Shown in pieces: positions 9,957-34,215 of a stretch of DNA of 42,878 nt. The translations under genes and the position numbers were made by a program. The stretch lies in the IMG/VR virus record IMGVR_UViG_3300025120_011362, positions 1-42,878 of that record. One strand, written 5' to 3'. Numbering within the stretch: position 1 is the first letter of the stretch; each line of letters begins with the position of its first letter. The notes under the pieces were generated by a model. It was given only the letters and a program-made list of their open reading frames with translations. It ran no database searches and was not told the DNA's origin. This DNA is from a virus.

Positions 9957-11060
9957 ATGGGCAAGTATGATTGTATCCTACCTTGGAATCATGTCAGAGT
10001 ATGGCAAACAGGCAAAGCATGGCCCTGTTGTCAATGGGTAGGCGAAGCACCAAACGACATGGATGTAAACAATGGTGATGTAATGAATCATCCATTGATG
10101 GTTGATATCCGAAATCGAATGTTAGAAGATAAACCTGTAAAAGGTTGTAGTCGTTGTTATAGACTAGAACGTGAAACAGGAACCAGTATGAGATTAGATG
10201 TCAACACTGGTATATTTGGAGGTATAGGACAAGATGTAGATAGAATGGTTCCTGTACACAAAGACAGTGAACCTAAACTGCGTTATTTAGAATTAAGTTT
10301 AAGCAATGCATGTAATAACAGTTGTAGAATGTGTGGACCAGCACTAAGCACACATTGGTATAAAGATGCAAAAGCATTAGGAATGGCAATACCCAAAGGT
10401 ATACAATACAATCCATTAAACAAAACTGATCTAAGCAACTTACGTTTTTTAAAATTACTAGGTGGTGAACCTCTACTACATCCAAAAGAAATTATAGATA
10501 TTTTAGATCGTTGTGATTTACCTAAACTCAATCTTATGTTAATCACAAATACTACAATGAGACCAACTGAAGAAATCATTGAAAGGTTTAAGAAACTTAA
10601 CAAACTTACTGTAACATTGAGCATCGATGCATATGGACCATTGAATGAGTTTTTAAGAACTGGTAGTCATTGGGAAGAAGTTAAAGAAAACTTGCATTGG
10701 TTTAGCGAACAAGATTGGTGTAAACTTACAGTGCATGGTGTAATTACTTTATACAATGTAAACTGTTTTATGAAGTTGCATAACTACTGTAGAGAACTAG
10801 GTGTATTTGCAAACTTTATGGTAGTAGAAGGTCCTGAATATATGCGTCCAAGACATTTACCAAAACAAGTTAAACAATGTTTACTTGAACAGTATGAACA
10901 CGAAGAGAAACTTTCGTTTGTTAAAGATACAATATACGAACTAAATCAACCAGGGCAATGGAAAACTTTCAGAACAGAAGATAGTAGAATGAATAAAGTT
11001 AGAAAAGAACGTTTTGAAGATTATAATTTAGAGCTAGCTGAAATGATTAGCTTGACATAG
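9957..11060 (+). CDS. twitch-type radical SAM protein
   Basis: A 367-residue radical SAM enzyme. The [4Fe-4S] site is CNNSCRMC with Cys119, Cys123 and Cys126, followed by the SAM-site KLLGGEPLLHP. An N-terminal cysteine-rich part (Cys6, Cys24, Cys25, Cys64, Cys67; WPCCQW, GCSRCYRLE) may hold an auxiliary cluster, in line with SPASM/twitch-type proteins common in marine T4-like phages. The substrate is unknown. The ATG at 9957 has no clear ribosome site. The phage ferredoxin and Fe-S carriers are possible support proteins. Confidence 0.88.
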   Translation: MGKYDCILPWNHVRVWQTGKAWPCCQWVGEAPNDMDVNNGDVMNHPLMVDIRNRMLEDKPVKGCSRCYRLERETGTSMRLDVNTGIFGGIGQDVDRMVPVHKDSEPKLRYLELSLSNACNNSCRMCGPALSTHWYKDAKALGMAIPKGIQYNPLNKTDLSNLRFLKLLGGEPLLHPKEIIDILDRCDLPKLNLMLITNTTMRPTEEIIERFKKLNKLTVTLSIDAYGPLNEFLRTGSHWEEVKENLHWFSEQDWCKLTVHGVITLYNVNCFMKLHNYCRELGVFANFMVVEGPEYMRPRHLPKQVKQCLLEQYEHEEKLSFVKDTIYELNQPGQWKTFRTEDSRMNKVRKERFEDYNLELAEMISLT

Positions 11061-26093: not shown

Positions 26094-26324
26094 ATGCAAG
26101 AAGAAACTGAACAAGACGCCCTATGGCGAGTGTCTGGCGAACTACAGTATAACACATCTATAGACAACTTACCAGAAGCTATAAGCACACTCGAACAAAG
26201 CAACATAGTAATCGCACTAGAAAAGTATAAAGGCAATAGAACCAAAGCCGCTGATGAATTAGGTATTGGCAGAACAAATCTTATAGCAAAAATACGCAAG
26301 TATGACATAAAAACTAGCGTTTGA
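26094..26324 (+). CDS. Fis-type (HTH_8) DNA-binding protein
   Basis: A 76-residue protein whose C-terminal half (ALEKYKGNRTKAADELGIGR, then TNLIAKIRKYDI) is a Fis/NtrC-type helix-turn-helix with the conserved GNRTKAADELGI...L..KI..Y pattern. The N-terminal 40 residues are acidic and may dimerise. TGAGG precedes ATG 26094. It is divergent from the curli block, across a gap with two palindromes, and so is a good candidate for local control of that block; a broader role in phage transcription is equally possible. Confidence 0.85.
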   Translation: MQEETEQDALWRVSGELQYNTSIDNLPEAISTLEQSNIVIALEKYKGNRTKAADELGIGRTNLIAKIRKYDIKTSV

Positions 26325-26686: not shown

Positions 26687-27169
26687 TCACCAATCTCCCC
26701 TTGCCTTTCCAACAAAGTAAATAAGTCCACCTAGCACACCTAATACTGCAATTGCGGCGAAACAGACTCCTACTATTTCTAATACTTGTCTGCGTCTTTC
26801 TTCTTGGTCATAAATTGCCTGTTGACGTCTTTTTCTTATATCAGCTTCAGTTTTTAGTAGCTCAGTCCATGCACTTGGACCTCGAGTAAAACTGATTATA
26901 TTTCTTAATTCTTCTCTCATATCTTCAGCTTTTTTCTTAGCCATAAAAATTTGCATAGCTTCTTCTTCAACTGAGCCTGCGTTGAATAATTTCTTAAACA
27001 GAGGAGGTTTTTTATTATACTCTTCTGCTTTTTTAATATCACTAACGGCTCCCATCCATCGACCTAAGTCTCCTGCCATGCCTTCGATATCACGTCCTGC
27101 CGCAAAAGCAGACTTAATTGTGTTGAAAGCCGCGGTGGCGGTTGCTACTGCTGTAATTGGATCTATCAT
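26687..27169 (-). CDS. conserved phage membrane protein with helical domain
   Basis: A 160-residue protein: an Ala-rich N-terminal helix (MIDPITAVATATAAFNTIKS), a charged helical middle with coiled-coil character (EEEAMQIFMAKKKAEDMREE; RKRRQQAIYDQEERRRQ), and one C-terminal membrane helix (VGVCFAAIAVLGVLGGLIYF). I recall proteins of this plan (MIDPVTA... start) in T4-like cyanophages, without known function. It heads the three-gene minus-strand group running to 26314. Confidence 0.75.
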   Translation of the reverse strand: MIDPITAVATATAAFNTIKSAFAAGRDIEGMAGDLGRWMGAVSDIKKAEEYNKKPPLFKKLFNAGSVEEEAMQIFMAKKKAEDMREELRNIISFTRGPSAWTELLKTEADIRKRRQQAIYDQEERRRQVLEIVGVCFAAIAVLGVLGGLIYFVGKARGDW

Positions 27170-27277
27170 GTATTGTCACTCTCACTCTGTACTTGGTTAG
27201 GTACTATACGTATTTAATATACCTCAACCAGAATATTAAGTGTGTGTTTAATGTAACACCAAAAATGACGAAAAAGG

Positions 27278-27305
27278 TTGACAAGTGTTTAATAGGCTGT
27301 ATACT
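27278..27305 (+). promoter_or_regulatory. early-type promoter, divergent member
   Basis: TTGACA at 27278-27283 and TATACT at 27300-27305, spaced by 16 bp, in the AAAAAGGTTGACA context of the repeated early promoters. It lacks the GACATCTTGGTG spacer block. It lies about 50 bp before the gene at 27356, in the 186-bp gap that also separates the divergent 27169 gene. Confidence 0.7.
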
Positions 27306-27355
27306 GTGTTTATTGTTTAGGGAAAACCCTAAGCTAAACTTTAATGGAGGCACAT

Positions 27356-27601
27356 ATGGCTTTTACAACAATTAAAACTAACCAAAAAACTTTCTTAGAA
27401 ACTTATCTAAGAGGTACCGGAAAAACTTTGACTGCGAAAGACGCAAAAGCAAGGTTTGGCATTCAGCAACTTCCTGCTAGAATGAGCGAAATGAAATCAG
27501 CTGGACTTAATGTCAAGACTGATGTAGCTACTACTGGAGCAACACGATACAGTGTAACTGCACGTGATGTTACTGGTTCAAGAGCAAAAATGTTTGCATA
27601 A
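27356..27601 (+). CDS. winged-helix-like small protein
   Basis: An 81-residue basic protein resembling a small winged helix-turn-helix: helix 1 KTFLETYLRG, helices 2-3 TAKDAKARFGIQQLPARMSE, and a wing (VKTDVATTGATRYSVTA), ending DVTGSRAKMFA. GGAGG at 27346-27350 fixes the ATG at 27356; longer versions would include the ribosome site. It has its own promoter before and terminator after, so it is a stand-alone, probably highly expressed unit, perhaps a DNA-binding or transcription-modifying early protein. Confidence 0.75.
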   Translation: MAFTTIKTNQKTFLETYLRGTGKTLTAKDAKARFGIQQLPARMSEMKSAGLNVKTDVATTGATRYSVTARDVTGSRAKMFA

Positions 27602-27623
27602 TAGCAGATATTTTAAATTAAAG

Positions 27624-27649
27624 ATAGGTCCTTCGGGGCCTATTTTTTT
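27624..27649 (+). terminator. rho-independent terminator with UUCG loop
   Basis: ATAGGTCC (27624-27631) pairs with GGGCCTAT (27636-27643), one G-T wobble, around a TTCG tetraloop, followed by six Ts. It lies 22 bp after the winged-helix-like gene and before the next early promoter, so it separates two transcription units. Confidence 0.9.
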
Positions 27650-27670
27650 GAATAAAACAAAAGAAAAAGG

Positions 27671-27699
27671 TTGACAGTATGACGTCTTGGTGTTAATAT
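27671..27699 (+). promoter_or_regulatory. repeated early promoter, copy A
   Basis: TTGACA (27671-27676), 17-bp spacer containing GACGTCTTGGTG, and TAATAT (27694-27699), preceded by AAAAAGG. The spacer block differs in one base from GACATCTTGGTG at the later copies. It drives the gene at 27733, which has GGAG before its ATG. Confidence 0.85.
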
Positions 27700-27732
27700 G
27701 TAAGTATAAAGTGAGAAACAAAGGAGTATTTT

Positions 27733-27990
27733 ATGCGAATCAAAGGTGCAATGACTATTTTAAATAAGCGTTGTGAGTTTTATGGTAAAACTCTTGCATG
27801 GTTAATTGATGCTATTGACAATGGTATGGATGAAAACATGACCGTTACACAAGCATATGAAGTTTACAAAATGGATCAAGGTCTAGTTTGGTGCGGTGTA
27901 AACGGAGTTGGGTTTACTACACCTGAGAATTCCTCCAACGAATGGAAAATATTCCGAGGTGAAGGTGTGCAGTTGGAGATGGCAATATAA
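27733..27990 (+). CDS. hypothetical early protein, 85 aa
   Basis: An 85-residue soluble protein with helical N-terminal half (AMTILNKRCEFYGKTLAWLI) and a polar C-terminal half. It begins 33 bp after an early promoter with GGAG at good spacing. Its stop overlaps the start of the SWIM-type protein by one base. No domain recognised; position suggests early expression. Confidence 0.7.
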   Translation: MRIKGAMTILNKRCEFYGKTLAWLIDAIDNGMDENMTVTQAYEVYKMDQGLVWCGVNGVGFTTPENSSNEWKIFRGEGVQLEMAI

Positions 27991-28193
27991 TGGCTTTCCC
28001 AAGCGAAGTAATTAATACTAAAAATCATCCATTTGTTGGAATAGTATGGCCCGTTGTAGGCAGTAAAGGTGATGAATATAGTGTTGAAATGTTGGATCGC
28101 GGATTTGACTGCGACTGTCCTGCTTATCGTAAATGTAAGCATATCAAACTTGTTGAAGATAAAATTTGTGGAGTAGATAATGTTAGCAATTGA
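27990..28193 (+). CDS. SWIM-type zinc-finger protein
   Basis: A 67-residue protein with the SWIM zinc motif CxCx(n)CxH: CDCPAYRKCKHI around residues 41-52, preceded by strands SVEMLDRGF. SWIM domains bind DNA or proteins. The N-terminal part (NHPFVGIVWPVVGSKGDEYS) is unassigned and there is no other domain. It is co-transcribed behind the early promoter at 27671 and is directly followed by an overlapping small gene. Confidence 0.75.
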   Translation: MAFPSEVINTKNHPFVGIVWPVVGSKGDEYSVEMLDRGFDCDCPAYRKCKHIKLVEDKICGVDNVSN

Positions 28194-28320
28194 TCATAAA
28201 ACATATGCAGATTATGTAGAATATAATCATGCTAGAGGGTATGGCGCATTTCCTGAAGATCTTTGGAATGCATTAAAAGAACAAGACGCAAACACAGTTT
28301 ATAGAAAGACAACTCAATGA
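28180..28320 (+). CDS. small hypothetical protein, 46 aa
   Basis: A 46-residue protein rich in Tyr and charged residues (YADYVEYNHARGYGAFPEDL). Its ATG lies in the end of the SWIM gene (14-bp overlap) and its TGA overlaps the PTH2 ATG. It fills what would be a 120-bp gap, and couplings at both ends support it. No function recognised. Confidence 0.6.
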   Translation: MLAIDHKTYADYVEYNHARGYGAFPEDLWNALKEQDANTVYRKTTQ

Positions 28321-28724
28321 CACCTGTATTATATATTTTAATGAGAACTGATTTGGATTCAATGAATCCTGGTAAAGCTATGGCACAAGCTAGTCATGCC
28401 GGCAGTGCATTTGTACATTCAATAGAGGGTGGATACAATGTAGATGAAGATCTGTTTGAAGAATGGCAAGAGTCAACGACACAAGGTTTTGGTACTGTGT
28501 TGGTACTTGGTGTTAATGAAGATCAAATGAGAACCGCAGTTGAAGTTGCTGAAAGTTGTGGCGTAGATAAGTTTCCATGTGACATTATACATGATCCAAC
28601 TTACCCACTACAAGATGGTGACACCACACACTTTATTCCTTTGGATACTTGTGGTTATATATTTGGTGATAAAGATGATGAGATTCTGCAATCAATATTA
28701 GGTAATTTTGAATTGCATTATTAG
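28317..28724 (+). CDS. peptidyl-tRNA hydrolase 2 family protein
   Basis: A 135-residue protein of the PTH2 family, which releases tRNA from stalled peptidyl-tRNA. The N-terminal signature LYILMRTDLDSMNPGKAMAQ with SHAGSAFVHS matches the RxDLxMxxGKxAAQxxHA block that builds the active site; later segments (FGTVLVLGVNED, IIHDPTYPL) fit the fold with an insertion. PTH2 is archaeal/eukaryotic-type, unlike the bacterial Pth, so it would add a second activity to the host. It ends just before an early-type promoter. Confidence 0.8.
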   Translation: MTPVLYILMRTDLDSMNPGKAMAQASHAGSAFVHSIEGGYNVDEDLFEEWQESTTQGFGTVLVLGVNEDQMRTAVEVAESCGVDKFPCDIIHDPTYPLQDGDTTHFIPLDTCGYIFGDKDDEILQSILGNFELHY

Positions 28725-28725
28725 G

Positions 28726-28753
28726 TTGACATATCCTACAAATATGTTATAAA
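28726..28753 (+). promoter_or_regulatory. early-type promoter before the ParB-like gene
   Basis: TTGACA (28726-28731) within GGTTGACA and TATAAA (28748-28753), spaced by 16 bp. It lacks the GACATCTTGGTG block. A start about 7 bp downstream would put the tandem hairpins at 28762 at the very 5' end of the mRNA. Confidence 0.7.
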
Positions 28754-28761
28754 TGTATACA

Positions 28762-28800
28762 GGGCCAGAAGTGCCCGCTAACCAAGGACCATAAGTGTCC
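28762..28800 (+). promoter_or_regulatory. tandem covarying hairpins in the 5' leader
   Basis: Two small hairpins follow one another: GGGC-CAGAAGT-GCCC (28762-28776) and GGAC-CATAAGT-GTCC (28786-28800). The loops differ by one base, and the one stem difference is compensated (G-C becomes A-T), so pairing is kept. The ribosome site ACGGAG follows at about 28807 and the ATG at 28820. This looks like a functional RNA element, perhaps a protein-binding site or mRNA 5'-end stabiliser. Confidence 0.7.
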
Positions 28801-28819
28801 GATATAACGGAGAATACAA

Positions 28820-29959
28820 ATGACAGAACTATCATACGCCACTCGTGCGAACAAAGAATACGATTCATGCGAATCAAATTTTATTTCCCTACAACAAAGA
28901 CTCAATGAAGCACTAGATAGAGCACCACACTTTCGTACTCAACTTGCTCAAGTGATAGAAGAGTTTAAAGATAGAAATCCTCAGTGGGATAGCTTTGAGA
29001 ATATCAATCTATGCGAATCATTGGAAACTGCACTGGATAAAATCCTTATAGATACAACCATGCAAAGACAGCCAAACATTAGGCATATTTTGTATATTTT
29101 AAATGAATTCAAAGAAACTATGGTAATGAGTTTGCAGGTTTACAAAAACGAAGATGGAGACTATGTTGCCTGGGACGGACAACATACTGCAATAGCTTTA
29201 TATATTATTGCATGCCTCATATATGGTAAACTTCCAAGTCAAGTTAAAATACCTATTGTTGTTTATTCAATAACACAAAAGAAAGAAATCCGTAATAATT
29301 TTATTAAACTAAATGGTGAATCTAAATTAAATTTAGACTTTATCGACACTTACAAGCAAATGGTTTATGGAGTTAAAGTGGATGGTGCAACAGATCCAGA
29401 ATGGGTAGATGTTTCTGAAAAGAATGATATTCTAGCAGAAGCAGATTTATTTGCAACCAATAAAAAGTTTGGCGACGAAGACGAGTCGGGTGCGTTTACA
29501 TTAATTGCAGATACTGTTATGAGTAGCAAAGGTATAGACAAAAGAAAATCCAAATCAGTTACAAGTATGTTCGCTGAATACTGGAAAAGACTTGGGGTAG
29601 AACGTCCTGTAGAAGCTAAAGAAGCTAGGCAGTTGTTTGAATACTTTAACTTGTGTGATTTGCAAAATATCGATATGCAAAAGCATATGGGCGAGTTTGT
29701 TAAATTTGTAAAACAATTTGAAGCAGACTTTAGTCCCAATGGAATGTTTTGGTCAAAAGTTAGACATGCATATGTAAGTTGGTATGCAGAGAAAAATCCA
29801 GACTTGTATGAAGAACAGGATGGTAAAGTTAGATTTAGCAGTGAGATGCCAACAGGTGTTCCGTTTCTAATAGAGCAACTCAAAAAAAGCACAAATATAC
29901 CTACACCAAAGTATGTTGCTAATAATGGCTTTAAGCCAGCTCAAAAAGATCTGTGGTAA
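28820..29959 (+). CDS. ParB/DGQHR-like domain protein
   Basis: A 379-residue protein. Around residues 110-125 it has YVAWDGQHTAIAL, the DGQHR-type motif of ParB/Srx-fold and DndB-like proteins, in which this motif binds nucleotide or catalyses phosphoryl transfer. Residues 85-175 fit that fold, with VKIPIVVYSI and RNNFIKLNGESK following. The rest is helical and unassigned. It sits behind its own promoter and the tandem-hairpin leader, unlike most genes here. It may act on DNA or on host regulators; the activity is not shown. Confidence 0.7.
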   Translation: MTELSYATRANKEYDSCESNFISLQQRLNEALDRAPHFRTQLAQVIEEFKDRNPQWDSFENINLCESLETALDKILIDTTMQRQPNIRHILYILNEFKETMVMSLQVYKNEDGDYVAWDGQHTAIALYIIACLIYGKLPSQVKIPIVVYSITQKKEIRNNFIKLNGESKLNLDFIDTYKQMVYGVKVDGATDPEWVDVSEKNDILAEADLFATNKKFGDEDESGAFTLIADTVMSSKGIDKRKSKSVTSMFAEYWKRLGVERPVEAKEARQLFEYFNLCDLQNIDMQKHMGEFVKFVKQFEADFSPNGMFWSKVRHAYVSWYAEKNPDLYEEQDGKVRFSSEMPTGVPFLIEQLKKSTNIPTPKYVANNGFKPAQKDLW

Positions 29960-30435
29960 TGCTTAGAGATTGGAGAAATGACGCTAGCAAAGCTGATCAT
30001 ATTGTTAAAGCTCAAGTGGCCCGGGGGGCCACTTGTATGCTAGAAGATTGTAATGAAGCACTCAGTGTATATGTAGGTCCTGGCAGTAATGTGTTGTGTA
30101 GAAAACATCAAAAACAGTGTACTCAGTATGGAGGTATGGGCAAGCCCGAACGTCCACATACATTCTATCGTAACTGGATATGTGAAGATTGTGGATATGA
30201 TCCACGTGAAGATCCAGACTTTGCTGATATAGAAGAATTTGATAACGAGTTTCACAGGCTAGGATGTATGAGAGGTATGATGGAAGGCGACCATGGCATT
30301 ACACAATCAGAAAGTCGCATGGATGAAACACTAGTTGTAGATATAGAAGAAAATATTACGACAAGGTGTTGTATGTGTCATAGAAAGAAAACACTAAAGA
30401 ATAAAGAAAATTTGGGTAAAAAGAAGGGAGACTAG
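29959..30435 (+). CDS. zinc-binding protein, possibly HNH-like
   Basis: A 158-residue protein with several cysteine/histidine clusters: CMLEDC and CRKHQKQC in the N-terminal half, CEDCGYD in the centre, GCMRGMMEGDHG, and CCMCHRKK near the basic C terminus. The multiple CxxC knuckles and the MEGDHG segment resemble a zinc-bound HNH/treble-clef nuclease, but the full catalytic pattern is not certain. The ATG shares one base with the ParB-like stop, so the two are probably made together. Confidence 0.65.
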   Translation: MLRDWRNDASKADHIVKAQVARGATCMLEDCNEALSVYVGPGSNVLCRKHQKQCTQYGGMGKPERPHTFYRNWICEDCGYDPREDPDFADIEEFDNEFHRLGCMRGMMEGDHGITQSESRMDETLVVDIEENITTRCCMCHRKKTLKNKENLGKKKGD

Positions 30436-30438
30436 CCC

Positions 30439-30537
30439 TAACTCATACTATAATATTACATAACTTGCGTGAGTGTACTTAACTCATACTATAGTAGTAA
30501 TAGTCAGATGTTGGTTAGAGTCCCAGTCAAATGTTGG
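30439..30537. repeat. short direct repeats in a 152-bp convergent gap
   Basis: TAACTCATACTATA occurs at 30439-30452 and again at 30480-30493. AGTCAGATGTTGG (30502-30514) recurs with one mismatch as AGTCAAATGTTGG (30525-30537). No convincing frame covers this gap between convergent genes. No tRNA fold was found. It could be a small RNA, a 3' regulatory region or protein sites. Confidence 0.5.
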
Positions 30538-30547
30538 ATAAAAAGGG

Positions 30548-30575
30548 AGGCTGATTTCCTTTAGGTTTTCAGCCT
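30548..30575. terminator. possible terminator-like hairpin between convergent genes
   Basis: AGGCTGA (30548-30554) pairs with TCAGCCT (30569-30575) around a 14-base T-rich loop. It lies between the zinc-protein stop and the minus-strand gene end, where both transcripts should stop. No long T-run follows on either strand, so this is tentative. Confidence 0.35.
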
Positions 30576-30587
30576 ATTGGTATTAGA

Positions 30588-30818
30588 TTACTTTCTGTTC
30601 CATATTGCATATAGAACCCAGATAGCAATCAAGCCCATTAGGCCTTCAGCGCCAAGTGTTGAGAGCATAGCACTCACGTTACTTACGACACTTACTTCTG
30701 GAAAGAATGGTATTGCACCTAGTCCTAGTACTTCTACTACGATCATAAGAGCCGCGATACTTACGCCTACTTCAGCTAAAGCACCAGCCCATCCTTTTAC
30801 TTTGTTGATAATATCCAT
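30588..30818 (-). CDS. small two-span membrane protein, holin-like
   Basis: A 76-residue protein with two hydrophobic helices (VGVSIAALMIVVEVLGLGAI and GLMGLIAIWVLYAIW) and a charged end (NRK). I recall similar small proteins starting MDI(I/L)NKVKGW in T4-like cyanophages, without assigned function. Two-span topology and size would allow a holin. It is a single minus-strand gene amid plus-strand early genes, with AGGAG before its ATG at 30818, so it is probably under its own control. Confidence 0.7.
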   Translation of the reverse strand: MDIINKVKGWAGALAEVGVSIAALMIVVEVLGLGAIPFFPEVSVVSNVSAMLSTLGAEGLMGLIAIWVLYAIWNRK

Positions 30819-30888
30819 GTATTATCTCCTTTTATATACGGATGTAGTACACCCGTATTATTATTTACAAAAAAGATGCAGAAAAAGG

Positions 30889-30917
30889 TTGACAATAAGA
30901 CATCTTGGTGCTATATT
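30889..30917 (+). promoter_or_regulatory. repeated early promoter, copy B
   Basis: TTGACA (30889-30894), 17-bp spacer ending GACATCTTGGTGC (the first G belongs to AAGA-C context), and TATATT (30912-30917), preceded by AAAAAGG. It drives the gene at 30951, which has AGGAG before its ATG. Confidence 0.85.
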
Positions 30918-30950
30918 ATAAGAGTAAGTTAAGCAAAACAGGAGTTAACT

Positions 30951-31292
30951 ATGCAGACACAGATTCAAAATTTACTCGCAGACATCAAAACAGACTATAT
31001 CAATTGGTCTACTAGCAATGGAACTAAAGAAATTAGTTCATATGCACAAGATGTGCTTAATGCTTTTGATGACAATGTTGAAGTAAAACATGGTAAGAAA
31101 TACATCAAAATACTTGGTGGTATTTCTAGTGGTGTTTGGGGTTTTATTGTTGCTACTGATGACCACCCTAAGTTTAAAAAAGGTGACATACTAAAAGCGG
31201 CAAGTTACAATGCTCCTACAACAAATAAAGCTAGAGGTAACGTTTTTGACGGTTACAAAATTCAATGGACTGGACCTAATTACTTAAACTAA
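30951..31292 (+). CDS. conserved-type early phage protein, 113 aa
   Basis: A 113-residue soluble protein with a helical N-terminal half (QIQNLLADIKTDYINWSTSN) and a beta-rich, Gly/Lys-rich C-terminal half (KYIKILGGISSGVWGFIVAT; FKKGDILKAASYNAPT). It is alone between two copies of the repeated early promoter, so it is a single-gene transcription unit. I recall related sequences in marine T4-like phages but no function. Candidate host-takeover protein by position only. Confidence 0.75.
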   Translation: MQTQIQNLLADIKTDYINWSTSNGTKEISSYAQDVLNAFDDNVEVKHGKKYIKILGGISSGVWGFIVATDDHPKFKKGDILKAASYNAPTTNKARGNVFDGYKIQWTGPNYLN

Positions 31293-31303
31293 AAACAAAA
31301 AGG

Positions 31304-31332
31304 TTGACAGTATGACATCTTGGTGCTATACT
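31304..31332 (+). promoter_or_regulatory. repeated early promoter, copy C
   Basis: TTGACA (31304-31309), 17-bp spacer with GACATCTTGGTGC, and TATACT (31327-31332), preceded by AAAAAGG-like sequence (CAAAAAGG). AGGAG and the ATG at 31362 follow. Confidence 0.88.
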
Positions 31333-31361
31333 GTTAACATAATAAGAAAAAGGAGTAACAC

Positions 31362-31577
31362 ATGGGTGCAGTAAAATCAATGGTAATGGATTTAGAAGAG
31401 AAATGTTTCGATCAGTTGACTGATGAAATTGGCGAATGTGAAGATATTTCCGACGCACAATTTAAAGCAATGAAGATTTTCAAAGAAAATAATTTATTGG
31501 ATTATATAGGTGCTGATTATTTGGAAGAAAGTGTTAGTGAAATATGGGCAGAAAAATGGAGCAAATATAATGTTTAG
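31362..31577 (+). CDS. hypothetical early protein, 71 aa
   Basis: A 71-residue acidic, helical protein (MVMDLEEKCFDQLTDEIGEC, then AQFKAMKIFKENNLL). AGGAG stands before ATG 31362 and an early promoter 30 bp upstream. Its end overlaps the next small membrane-protein gene by 8 bp. No domain recognised. Confidence 0.7.
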   Translation: MGAVKSMVMDLEEKCFDQLTDEIGECEDISDAQFKAMKIFKENNLLDYIGADYLEESVSEIWAEKWSKYNV

Positions 31578-31734
31578 ATTTTGTTTAGGACTTGGTTGTT
31601 TAATTCTTGCAGTAGGAGCAATTGATGGTCCTACAGGACACGAAGGAGATGCTTGGCATCTTGCATTTATGTTTGGAGCATTAGGCGTAGGCTTTATGCT
31701 TTGGGCTTTACCAGCAATAATAGATAGGAGCTAA
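31570..31734 (+). CDS. small membrane protein, 54 aa
   Basis: A 54-residue protein with two hydrophobic stretches (MFRFCLGLGCLILAVGAI and HLAFMFGALGVGFMLWALPA) split by a polar turn (DGPTGHEGDAW). ATG 31570 lies in the end of the previous gene; a longer start in the same frame would be buried in that gene. Probably an early-expressed inner-membrane protein. Function unknown. Confidence 0.65.
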   Translation: MFRFCLGLGCLILAVGAIDGPTGHEGDAWHLAFMFGALGVGFMLWALPAIIDRS

Positions 31735-31736
31735 AC

Positions 31737-32030
31737 ATGTCTACACTACAAAATGCAATAGACGCAATGCGTTTAATCAATAACCAATCAGACCTCAATG
31801 AGCTTGCTAAAGTTTGGAAATTGCAAATGAGCTATATTGGTAGCAAAGCCAAACGTGGTCTTAAAAAAGGTGACACTGTTGAATGGGAATCACGTGGCAT
31901 TGTAAGAACTGGTAAAATTGTAAAAATGAATCCAAAGACTGTAGAAGTTGCTGACATGGGCAATACTCCGTTTGGCAGAACAGTTACTAGGGTACCGGCT
32001 AGTATGATAATTGGTAAGGTTGCGGCTTGA
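31737..32030 (+). CDS. conserved-type phage protein with SH3/KOW-like strands, 97 aa
   Basis: A 97-residue basic protein. The N-terminal third is helical (LQNAIDAMRLINNQSDLNEL). The rest (GLKKGDTVEWESRGIVRTGK, IVKMNPKTVEV) resembles a small SH3/KOW-like barrel, a fold often used with nucleic acid or ribosomes. The fold call is by pattern only. AGGAG is placed before ATG 31737. It overlaps the MazG-like gene by 4 bp. Confidence 0.7.
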   Translation: MSTLQNAIDAMRLINNQSDLNELAKVWKLQMSYIGSKAKRGLKKGDTVEWESRGIVRTGKIVKMNPKTVEVADMGNTPFGRTVTRVPASMIIGKVAA

Positions 32031-32293
32031 AAAAACTAGACAAACATCAACAGTTGTTCGCCATCTCTGCTGAAGAGTGTGGCGAACTTGTGCAAGTATG
32101 TATGAAAATACTCCGCAAAGCCAAAGTCAATGATGAATGGAATGCTAAACTGCTGGAAGAAGCAGGTGATGTTTTTTGTATGTTGGATCTAATGGTAATA
32201 CATGGTTACCTTACTTGGGACGATATTCAAAAAAGATCCAATGTTAAAAAAGAAAAATTAATTAAATGGAGTAATTTAATTCCTAAAAAATAG
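32027..32293 (+). CDS. second MazG-like NTP-pyrophosphatase
   Basis: An 88-residue all-alpha protein of MazG/dUTPase-like type. Metal motifs are AEECGELVQVCMKIL (ExxE) and LLEEAGDVFCMLDLM (ExxD). It is smaller than the protein at 8117 and not obviously its close copy. The start is TTG at 32027, overlapping the preceding TGA; no ATG lies near. Two pyrophosphatases in one window suggest control of more than one nucleotide, for example dUTP and a modified or stress nucleotide, which is inference. Confidence 0.75.
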   Translation: MKKLDKHQQLFAISAEECGELVQVCMKILRKAKVNDEWNAKLLEEAGDVFCMLDLMVIHGYLTWDDIQKRSNVKKEKLIKWSNLIPKK

Positions 32294-32303
32294 TACATTG
32301 TTT

Positions 32304-32311
32304 CATAAATA
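32304..32311 (+). promoter_or_regulatory. T4-late-promoter-like element (CATAAATA)
   Basis: CATAAATA lies in the 26-bp gap between the MazG-like gene and the gene at 32320. It matches the NATAAATA late core, but the distance to the start codon leaves almost no leader, so it may be chance. Confidence 0.3.
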
Positions 32312-32319
32312 TCAATGAG

Positions 32320-32757
32320 ATGATGTACATTAAAAACGATCCAATTGTTTTTACATGGAAAGATATAGACAGATACCTAGACGAAAATACCAGATGTAAT
32401 TATATATTGGAGACAGAATACCAAGGCGTTCAATATGCAATTTTTTATCATGGATTTCCTTTCAAGAAATACATGGCGGCACATTGGACAGAAGATCAAT
32501 ATAAATGGGCAGATGTACCCGCAATTGCCGAAGCAGATTGGATAGAGGATTTAGAAATTGACGGTATCATTGCAGACAATGGAGATGTTATCTACAGTAG
32601 GTACCCAACTGAACGCAGGAGTAGCGATGATGGTAGTGTTTGGATTCGCGGCAGTGATACAAGCAGTACAGATCCTCAAAGACGGTGCACATTGACCATA
32701 TTCAAAGGAAGACTGGAGTATTGGGAAAATGACAAATACAAAAAGAATTGCATTTGA
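32320..32757 (+). CDS. hypothetical protein, 145 aa
   Basis: A 145-residue acidic, aromatic-rich protein (TWKDIDRYLDENTRCNYILE, YQGVQYAIFYHGFPFKKYMA) ending in a basic tail. ATGs at 32320 and 32323 are both possible. The strand-rich pattern suggests a small globular domain, but no family is recognised. It overlaps the next gene by 29 bp in another frame. Confidence 0.65.
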   Translation: MMYIKNDPIVFTWKDIDRYLDENTRCNYILETEYQGVQYAIFYHGFPFKKYMAAHWTEDQYKWADVPAIAEADWIEDLEIDGIIADNGDVIYSRYPTERRSSDDGSVWIRGSDTSSTDPQRRCTLTIFKGRLEYWENDKYKKNCI

Positions 32758-32932
32758 AGACGCATTAGAAGAAGATGATTTTGGACTTATAATTGGTAAA
32801 GATGGTAGCCTTAAAGGTATGTTTGTACCAACTGAATATGAAGATGAAGATTATATCCCTGAAGAAATTGTACAAATACTAAACAAAGTTTATGGTGTTG
32901 ATATTGCTACCGACTCCGCTACTATTCATTAA
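32729..32932 (+). CDS. hypothetical acidic protein, 67 aa
   Basis: A 67-residue strongly acidic protein (EDALEEDDFGLIIGKDGSLK, TEYEDEDYIPEEIVQIL). Small acidic early proteins can mimic DNA or bind host polymerases, but nothing here shows that. It starts inside the previous gene and its stop directly touches the next ATG. Confidence 0.65.
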   Translation: MTNTKRIAFEDALEEDDFGLIIGKDGSLKGMFVPTEYEDEDYIPEEIVQILNKVYGVDIATDSATIH

Positions 32933-33103
32933 ATGAGACGAAATCGTAAACCAGACCCTAGAGAATACATTGAAGTTAGAATTAAACAACTAATTGACGA
33001 TAGACGCAAGGCACATGAACCTATGGATAAAGAATGGTACTTGCGGATAATCAGTGAGCTAAGATATGTGTTAACTATTATGAATAAAAAGGTTGACAAG
33101 TAA
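32933..33103 (+). CDS. small basic protein, 56 aa
   Basis: A 56-residue basic, helical protein (MRRNRKPDPREYIEVRIKQL, KEWYLRIISELRYVLTIM). It starts directly after the preceding stop and its last codons (KKVDK) are read through the -35 region of the next early promoter. The end of the gene and the promoter thus share the same bases. Function unknown. Confidence 0.6.
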   Translation: MRRNRKPDPREYIEVRIKQLIDDRRKAHEPMDKEWYLRIISELRYVLTIMNKKVDK

Positions 33104-33121
33104 GACATCTTATGTTACTAT
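33093..33121 (+). promoter_or_regulatory. repeated early promoter, copy D
   Basis: TTGACA (33093-33098), 17-bp spacer starting AGTAAGACATCTTATG, and TACTAT (33116-33121), preceded by AAAAAGG. The GACATCTT part of the spacer block is kept but GGTG is not. It overlaps the end of the 56-residue gene and drives the gene at 33153 (CAGGAG before its ATG). Confidence 0.8.
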
Positions 33122-33152
33122 AAGACTTAACATTAAACAACAGGAGTTGCCA

Positions 33153-33404
33153 ATGGCTATGAACTTTTTTGAAATTACCCCTCAGCAACAAAAAGCTACC
33201 GGTCTTGCTGAATTTATGACAGACCTGACTTATAAAATTAAAGATGACCATGACATGGCTGTACGCCTAATGCGTCTAGCTGAAAAGCTCAGTGATTTGG
33301 ATGCACTGTTTGGTACTCGTTGGGAACGAGATTTTGATGCTGATGAGAAAAAGTTGGCAGTACAATGTGTAAAACTTATGGAGAAACAGAATGCATCAAC
33401 TTGA
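33153..33404 (+). CDS. hypothetical early protein, 83 aa
   Basis: An 83-residue helical protein (MAMNFFEITPQQQKATGLAE, MAVRLMRLAEKLSDLDALFG). AGGAG before ATG 33153 and the early promoter 32 bp upstream fix this start; the longer frame would run through the promoter. It overlaps the next gene by 14 bp. No domain recognised. Confidence 0.7.
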   Translation: MAMNFFEITPQQQKATGLAEFMTDLTYKIKDDHDMAVRLMRLAEKLSDLDALFGTRWERDFDADEKKLAVQCVKLMEKQNAST

Positions 33405-33579
33405 ACTATTGGAAAAACGCATTGACAATGTCATGACTGCTAGAGACTTTTGTGGTCCTAATAGTTGGGGTGAAAATTATTGGAGCGGAGTATTAGCTTG
33501 TTTAATGAGGCAACTCAATGAATATACCAATCAACCTGGTGTAAAAACTTCAAAAGAAACTATTAATAATTTGCATTAA
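33391..33579 (+). CDS. hypothetical early protein, 62 aa
   Basis: A 62-residue protein with helical ends and a Trp/Gly-rich centre (CGPNSWGENYWSGVLACLMR). GGAG lies at workable distance before ATG 33391, inside the previous gene. It ends four bases before the next early promoter. Function unknown. Confidence 0.65.
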   Translation: MHQLELLEKRIDNVMTARDFCGPNSWGENYWSGVLACLMRQLNEYTNQPGVKTSKETINNLH

Positions 33580-33583
33580 AAGG

Positions 33584-33612
33584 TTGACATCGTGACATCT
33601 TGGTGCTATATT
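33584..33612 (+). promoter_or_regulatory. repeated early promoter, copy E
   Basis: TTGACA (33584-33589), 17-bp spacer with GACATCTTGGTGC, and TATATT (33607-33612), preceded by TAAAAGG. It is identical to copies B and C through the GACATCTTGGTGCTATA block. It drives the HAD gene at 33643. Confidence 0.88.
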
Positions 33613-33642
33613 ATTAGTATAAGTTAAAAAAGAAAGCAGACT

Positions 33643-34215
33643 ATGAAAAAGAATTTAATACTGACCGATTGTGATGGAGTGCTAGTTAATTGGGAAAACA
33701 GTTTCATTGATTGGATGACAGCACAAGGCTTTACACCTGACCCTAATCAATATGGTTATGATATGCACAAAAGGTTTGGTGAGAGAAAAGCAAAGATCAA
33801 AGCATTAGTAAGAGAGTTTAATAACAGTGCTTGGATTGGTTGGTTGAAGCCACACAAAGATGCAGTTGACGGAGTTGCAAAGCTAGCTGAAAAAGGCTGG
33901 AGGTTTGGAGCAATTACTAGTTTAAGCGAAGATGAATATGCACAAAAATTAAGAGCTTACAATATGAAAGATCTTTTTGGAGATGTATTTGATTTTGTAA
34001 CCTGCATTGATACAGGAGCAGACAAAGACGAAGCTCTACTCCCTTATAAAGATAGTGGCTTGTACTGGATAGAAGACAAGCCGGAAAATGCAAAACTTGG
34101 TGCCGATTTTGGTCTTAACACAATAATGTTAAGGCATCAACATAATGCTAACTTTAGTTACGACGGTGTTCATACTGTAGACAACTGGGCTCAAATCGTT
34201 AATTATATTAACTAG
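33643..34215 (+). CDS. HAD-superfamily nucleotidase-like protein
   Basis: A 190-residue HAD hydrolase. Motif I is TDCDGVLVNW with the two catalytic Asp, motif II is the Thr/Ser in GAITSLSED, and the acidic motif IV is YWIEDKPENA. The length and an alpha-helical insert after motif I (residues about 20-60) fit 5'-nucleotidase / deoxyribonucleotidase-like members. It would release nucleosides or act on a sugar phosphate; the substrate is not shown. It has its own early promoter and converges on phoH with an 8-bp overlap. Confidence 0.82.
   Translation: MKKNLILTDCDGVLVNWENSFIDWMTAQGFTPDPNQYGYDMHKRFGERKAKIKALVREFNNSAWIGWLKPHKDAVDGVAKLAEKGWRFGAITSLSEDEYAQKLRAYNMKDLFGDVFDFVTCIDTGADKDEALLPYKDSGLYWIEDKPENAKLGADFGLNTIMLRHQHNANFSYDGVHTVDNWAQIVNYIN

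Follow-up and report, generated by a model that had tools for sequence, protein, structure and literature searches.

Analysis of a 42,878-base virus record given as linear (IMG/VR record IMGVR_UViG_3300025120_011362; the window below means this whole stretch) revealed five σ70-type promoters that share a conserved block in the spacer between their −35 and −10 hexamers. Comparison with other viral contigs suggests that this block represents a local and partly decayed version of a two-fold symmetric word (dyad), AGYAAGA-nn-TCTTRCT, which is found in many marine phage contigs. We propose that the dyad, or its decayed form, is probably an operator placed inside strong σ70-type, presumably early promoters, where a dimeric protein most likely represses. 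The operator reading is suggested by the behavior of the symmetric word, which stays between the −35 and −10 hexamers, shifts its register there, is not required for promoter recognition and is retained by orthologous genes. Protein binding, repression and early timing are what we infer from these features, early function because of the strength of the promoters and the small genes that they serve.

A spacer block shared by five promoters

All five promoters lie on the + strand, read TTGACA-N17-TAnnnT and have the hexamer spacing (16–18 bp) and the position 5′ of a gene that characterize σ70-type promoters, bearing out the repeated σ70-like promoter of a preliminary description of this DNA; the open reading frame (ORF) that follows each one starts about 58–62 bp past the start of the −35. 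With the register defined as the number of bases between TTGACA and the start of the dyad, copy 1 (27671–27699, −10 TAATAT) carries ATGACGTCTT at 27679–27688, copy 2 (30889–30917, TATATT) the dyad AAGACATCTT at 30897–30906 in register 2, copy 3 (31304–31332, TATACT) the element ATGACATCTT at 31312–31321, copy 4 (33093–33121, TACTAT) the dyad AAGACATCTT at 33102–33111 in register 3, and copy 5 (33584–33612, TATATT) the element GTGACATCTT at 33592–33601. The genes that they putatively drive are the ORFs at 27733–27990, 30951–31292, 31362–31577, 33153–33404 and 33643–34215, respectively, the last encoding a HAD-like protein.

The repetition at five sites is far beyond chance, since exact matches to AAAAGGTTGACA-N4-GACATCTTGGTGCTATA at copies 2, 3 and 5 (30883, 31298 and 33578) were found where none was expected (0 of 100 shuffles). 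The four variable bases described before the block hold exactly at 30889, 31304 and 33584, whereas at 33093, which as described keeps GACATCTT alone and has no GGTG, five bases follow TTGACA and the −10 spacing is still 17 bp; register 3, the form of this copy, is the common form in the wider group. The copy correctly described as having GACGTC is 27671, in which GTTAAT also replaces GCTATA. The short word GGTTGACA occurs 11 times in the window, on the + strand only (1.44 expected; 11 reached in 0 of 100 shuffles), including three occurrences within ORFs (6788, 16566 and 39668). Of three relaxed members previously listed, those at 958–986 (TTGACA-N17-TATACT) and 27278–27305 (TTGACA-N16-TATACT, 5′ of an HTH_39 gene) are + strand promoters without the block, but that at 28726 has no good −10.

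In a wider set of records, the block proved to be tied to promoters rather than frequent away from them: in 34 of them (725,379 bases), most of them retrieved by a stricter form of the motif, TTGACA with at most one mismatch lay 3–5 bases upstream of GAC(A/G)TCTTG(A/G)TG in 53 of 53 cases. Bare GACATCTT is less restricted, with 49 occurrences on promoters and 18 off them in the same records.

The earlier suggestion that the spacer is conserved beyond the needs of σ70 is supported by promoters picked blind to their spacers in motif-bearing records (TTGACA, N16 or N17, TAnnnT and an ORF with a Shine-Dalgarno sequence). Among 79 such N17 promoters, 37 matched the block at six or more of eight positions and 33 at all eight, for which shuffled spacers give an expectation of 0.009; the spacers of the other 42 were nearly uninformative, mostly 0.04–0.27 bit per position. 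With N16 spacing, 1 of 23 promoters had the block, as a weak 6/8 match. Because the records were fetched by motif, the share with the block is not a population estimate, and the point is the two-peaked distribution. Judged from these sequences, the block is a separate element on about half of the promoters and is not needed for a σ70-like promoter, since promoters just as good but with unconserved spacers are found in these phages. A TG at −15/−14 (extended −10) accounts in part for the conservation beside the −10, but not for GACATCTT at −25 to −18. The region from −6 to about +12 (approximately GTATGTATAAGTTAA) was also conserved in block promoters, with a loose pattern found in 23 of 37 compared to 4 of 42 non-block N17 promoters.

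A symmetric word in shifting registers

A scan of viral contigs with GGTTGACANNNNGACATCTTGGTG returned 34 stretches. Distant members have the form TTCAAGACATCTTACAC, and the GGTG part is confined to the subgroup of the window, so the conserved core is taken to be AAGACATCTT. Scanning with TTGACANNNAAGANNTCTTNNNNTANNNT gave at least 120 stretches, from which 110 distinct sites were analysed after removal of near-identical ones (48 from this set; similar filters were applied in the promoter, flank, register and family analyses). At the outer positions, which the scan did not select, the left side showed A94 G68 Y106 and the right side R107 C81 T65 among the 110 sites; as these are reverse complements, the consensus becomes AGYAAGA-nn-TCTTRCT. 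The two-fold symmetry expected of an operator for a dimeric regulator is evident in perfect 7-bp arms at 22 of the 110 sites, 7 of which are perfect 16-bp palindromes. Across 12 whole records, 50 dyad sites were found compared to none for the reversed pattern. The GACRTCTTGGTG form of the window appears to derive from this dyad, and because the left arm is partly lost in three of the five copies, the window may have a weaker site or one read asymmetrically.

The position of the dyad varies inside the presumed polymerase footprint at a constant 17-bp spacer, as that of an operator may. Among 403 distinct N17 promoters, AAGANNTCTT occurred in registers 0 (once), 2 (28), 3 (75), 5 (six) and 8 (five), and seven times elsewhere from −60 to +54, where shuffled spacers give an expectation of 0.12 for registers 0–7; pattern-based fetching had partly raised the counts of registers 2 and 3, but at that time not those of 0, 5 and 8. 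A dedicated register 5 scan returned 76 stretches, and among the 35 distinct ones analysed GG preceded the −35 in 27 and a start signal was present in 32, with the consensus AGCAAGA-nn-TCTTGCT and a free center. A scrambled control of the same composition, AGAANNTTCT, yielded background only (21 stretches, 16 distinct analysed, GG in none and a start signal in nine). Registers are mixed even within a record: one contig (G016) has register 3 eight times, register 5 three times and register 8 once, and another (G019) has register 8 three times and register 3 once.

These shifts extend to orthologous genes. Dyad promoters (280, with one mismatch allowed) precede 93 gene families. Among the 35 families represented at least twice, 18 differ in register between members, mostly as 2 versus 3. 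The + strand ORFs behind copies 2 and 5 are examples: the family of the 113-aa ORF at 30951–31292 (weak match to phrog_5014, function unknown) has its dyad promoter in registers 2, 3, 4 and 5 depending on the contig, and that of the 190-aa HAD-like ORF at 33643–34215 (phrog_420; Pfam HAD_2 below cut-off) in registers 2, 3 and 8. Two families have block promoters at some members and block-free promoters at others.

Activation is the less likely use of such a site because the registers lie half a helical turn apart and the −35 is intact. A phage activator that turns these promoters on from the spacer, in the manner of MerR or MotA, is very improbable. A dyad within the spacer is indeed the MerR arrangement, but MerR-type promoters have spacers of 19–20 bp rather than the 17 bp seen here, registers half a turn apart would not suit an activator that depends on contact, and MerR_1 was found in none of 12 records. 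MotA-dependent middle promoters lack the −35 (accessible text of PMC2988021), whereas TTGACA is present at all five window copies, and AsiA was likewise found in none of the 12 fragment records.

The preliminary description also raised recent copying of a promoter cassette. As the main cause this is not supported, because the upstream flanks are no more alike within a contig than between contigs (10.30 compared to 10.34 of 35 positions) and the downstream ones hardly so (5.66 within compared to 5.37 between, of 17). Promoters of one contig resemble each other in the spacer alone (6.85 compared to 5.57 of 17), and copying is therefore unlikely to be the chief source of the pattern. A related explanation, that the promoters are recently duplicated mobile cassettes of the PeSL type which owe their likeness to common descent through recombination and contain no operator, we consider quite unlikely. 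PeSL promoter–terminator cassettes of T4-type phages are reportedly described in Arbiol 2010 and Comeau 2014, and they are mentioned in the accessible text of PMC4503421. The present promoters resemble them in being conserved in sequence, repeated between small genes, in some cases preceded by a hairpin, and exchanged between genes. Such exchange does occur at orthologous genes, as a 231-aa family has both a block/N17 and a no-block/N16 form; the leader is shared, and a terminator-like hairpin with a T run lies just 5′ of copy 1 on the + strand (27620–27647; −15.1 kcal/mol, z −3.93, unmatched by any of 200 shuffles), with similar stems before other dyad promoters. In contrast to a cassette with a stem-loop terminator at each promoter, however, no comparable hairpin was found upstream of copies 2–5 (z −1.51 to +1.66), conservation covers the promoter core plus the dyad, the flanks are not shared within a contig, and the dyad changes register.

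Distribution among contigs and the search for a binding protein

In 12 dyad-bearing records, 67 of 117 GGTTGACW-N17-TANNNT promoters contained a perfect dyad, whereas five sister records had it in none of 61 GGTTGACW-N17 promoters (two of these records, G020 and G025, examined without their last 35 and 1,244 bases, respectively). Seven further HTH_39-bearing records had no dyad promoters. Motif-blind sampling through relatives of the clamp loader found block promoters at 7 of 11 loci, the most distant of the seven at 69% identity. Sampling through the HAD protein found the block at only 2 of 80 loci, and the motif is therefore much narrower than the HAD gene family. Two motif queries of cultured phages gave no convincing match; the matches listed for cultured relatives, which covered two and part of a third of five, showed σ70-like promoters with no common spacer. 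Among the papers that literature searches listed, none was seen to describe this promoter motif. Two dyad-free sister records, G024 (L596–L601) and G025 (L602–L606), have 21 and 23 GGTTGACW-N17 promoters with spacers of the types TAGCA..GGTGC and ..AGATCA, which are possibly other operators.

This distribution bears on the possibility that the block is an element of promoter strength intrinsic to RNA polymerase, acting through spacer shape or contacts with the core and requiring no second protein, as in the T4 early consensus. The A-tract, GG, TTGACA, TG and TATA are near consensus, so that the promoters resemble the T4 promoters with UP, −35, TGn and −10 elements, and they share with T4 early promoters near-consensus σ70 hexamers, an upstream A-tract, often TGn, a position before small phage genes and a conservation that exceeds the core elements (accessible text of PMC2988021). 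Block promoters are, in addition, conserved in the initially transcribed leader. Nevertheless, we regard this explanation as unlikely: while the −35 and −10 hexamers stay fixed, the dyad between them occurs in registers 2, 3, 5 and 8, at orthologous genes as well, and many promoters of the same records lack it, as do all 61 comparable promoters of the sister records. A register-shifting spacer dyad is not described for T4 early promoters in the accessible text of that source.

The second bound factor proposed in the preliminary description gains indirect support from the symmetry and changing register of the dyad, but the protein itself was not found by family searches. None of the five families searched (MetJ, RHH_1, MerR_1, HTH_3 and AsiA) yielded a candidate in the 12–13 records covered, which is weak evidence because the records are fragments, and genes common to dyad-bearing records and missing from dyad-lacking ones included no evident DNA-binding protein, as judged by eye.

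One form of the dyad, AAGACGTCTT, includes AGACGTCT, the MET-box consensus bound by MetJ according to the accessible text of PMC4239095. This likeness to the core octamer in part of the sites, together with the failure to find a phage regulator, would fit a site that belongs to a regulator of the host, such as a MetJ-like sensor, and is exploited by the phages. Such an origin is improbable: MetJ operators are tandem arrays of at least two MET boxes (same source), whereas each site here has a single box, the two center bases are free in register 5, and MetJ was found in none of 13 records, comprising the 12 phage records and a co-binned metagenome-assembled genome (MAG). That MAG, Gammaproteobacteria MED685 (G014), has three motif stretches, and a fuller scan found further block promoters. 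Most simply, these stretches are probably phage contigs binned with the MAG, and we claim no host. A fourth match beside them, in a Poritiphilus stretch, looks like chance.

The winged helix-turn-helix gene HTH_39 (27356–27601, + strand) adjoins copy 1, and its own promoter at 27278 has no block. Its protein is 94–96% identical in 16 other motif records and has no match in the cultured-phage collection. At first attractive as the binder and present in 6 of 12 records, it was set aside as the favored candidate because it does not track the dyad: block promoters lay near only 17 of 63 motif-blind loci and near none below 94% identity, seven further HTH_39 records had no dyad, and the HTH_39 proteins of four other dyad-bearing records are just 29–43% identical. 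It is now a less probable candidate regulator. A stable hairpin (−14 kcal/mol, z −2.58) lies in the HTH_39 leader between promoter and start. In four stretches (L110, L116, L122 and L130), the spacer of the promoter that directly follows the HTH_39 gene contains CTCCTGC or CCCTGC, matching GCAGGAG or GCAGGG near the ribosome-binding site, and the pair forms an inverted repeat spanning the start. A single gene of the Fis-type HTH_8 family in the window (26094–26324) was not found in other motif records.

Besides the missing binder, several observations weigh against an operator. Covariation between the arms is weak: of the outer pairs, one clearly exceeded shuffles (36/5000), one was borderline (153/5000) and one showed none (1277/5000), and for register 5 a single pair of the three stood out from shuffles (144/5000). 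The full AAGA-nn-TCTT is kept in only two of the five window copies, 50 of the 117 comparable promoters in dyad-bearing records have no perfect dyad, and dyad cores were found 160 times on promoters and 36 times off them, some in terminator-like stems. Moreover, the dyad-bearing records were selected for holding the motif, the motif-blind figure being the 7 of 11 clamp-loader loci. Separately, cores resembling AAAGACGTCTTT occur in terminator-like stems or palindromes of five stretches (L352, L373, L420, L428 and L439), several of them near dyad promoters.

Phage context, known systems and meaning

By its protein matches, the window falls near large T4-related phages. The clamp loader matches its counterparts in Pseudomonas phage PA5oct and relatives at 56% identity, a ClpA-like protein is 46% identical to its counterpart in Sinorhizobium phage Phosso, and a T4 gp9/10-like protein scores below the Pfam cut-off; positions 27000–34000 had no near DNA match in 50,697 cultured-phage records. 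The window has a single radical SAM match (9957–11060). Contigs G001, G015, G016, G021 and others carry very many radical-SAM-like genes each, recognized by eye from cysteine motifs, and in G001 (piece L038, near 18377) an ORF resembles by eye the N-terminal part of translation initiation factor IF-3.

In the repression mechanism that we favor, a dimeric DNA-binding protein, probably phage-encoded, would bind the dyad in the 17-bp spacer and most likely occlude host RNA polymerase, thereby switching off many small, scattered transcription units at once. Repressor operators sited in core promoters are familiar from the λ OR/OL and tet operators, which likewise have a dyad operator overlapping the −35/−10 region and repeated at several promoters. 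In contrast to these, the present sites belong to T4-related phages with no known repressor, and there is usually one site per promoter, before 93 gene families by a loose count.

More tentatively, we raise the possibility, which we hold to be doubtful as yet, that in large, apparently lytic T4-related marine phages one dimeric phage protein, a global repressor of early genes, shuts about ninety small gene families in concert, possibly including those of superinfecting relatives, with sister phages using other operator words in that position, such as the spacer types of G024 and G025. If true, virulent phages would possess an immunity-like operator system, and a mechanism would be at hand for early shut-off, the cause of which in T4 is described as unknown in the accessible text of PMC2988021. 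A defined, repeated DNA word of mobile register within promoters is a concrete target and a possible bait for the binder. The dyad also offers a signature for the promoters of an uncultured marine phage group, and it reveals regulon turnover at orthologous genes.

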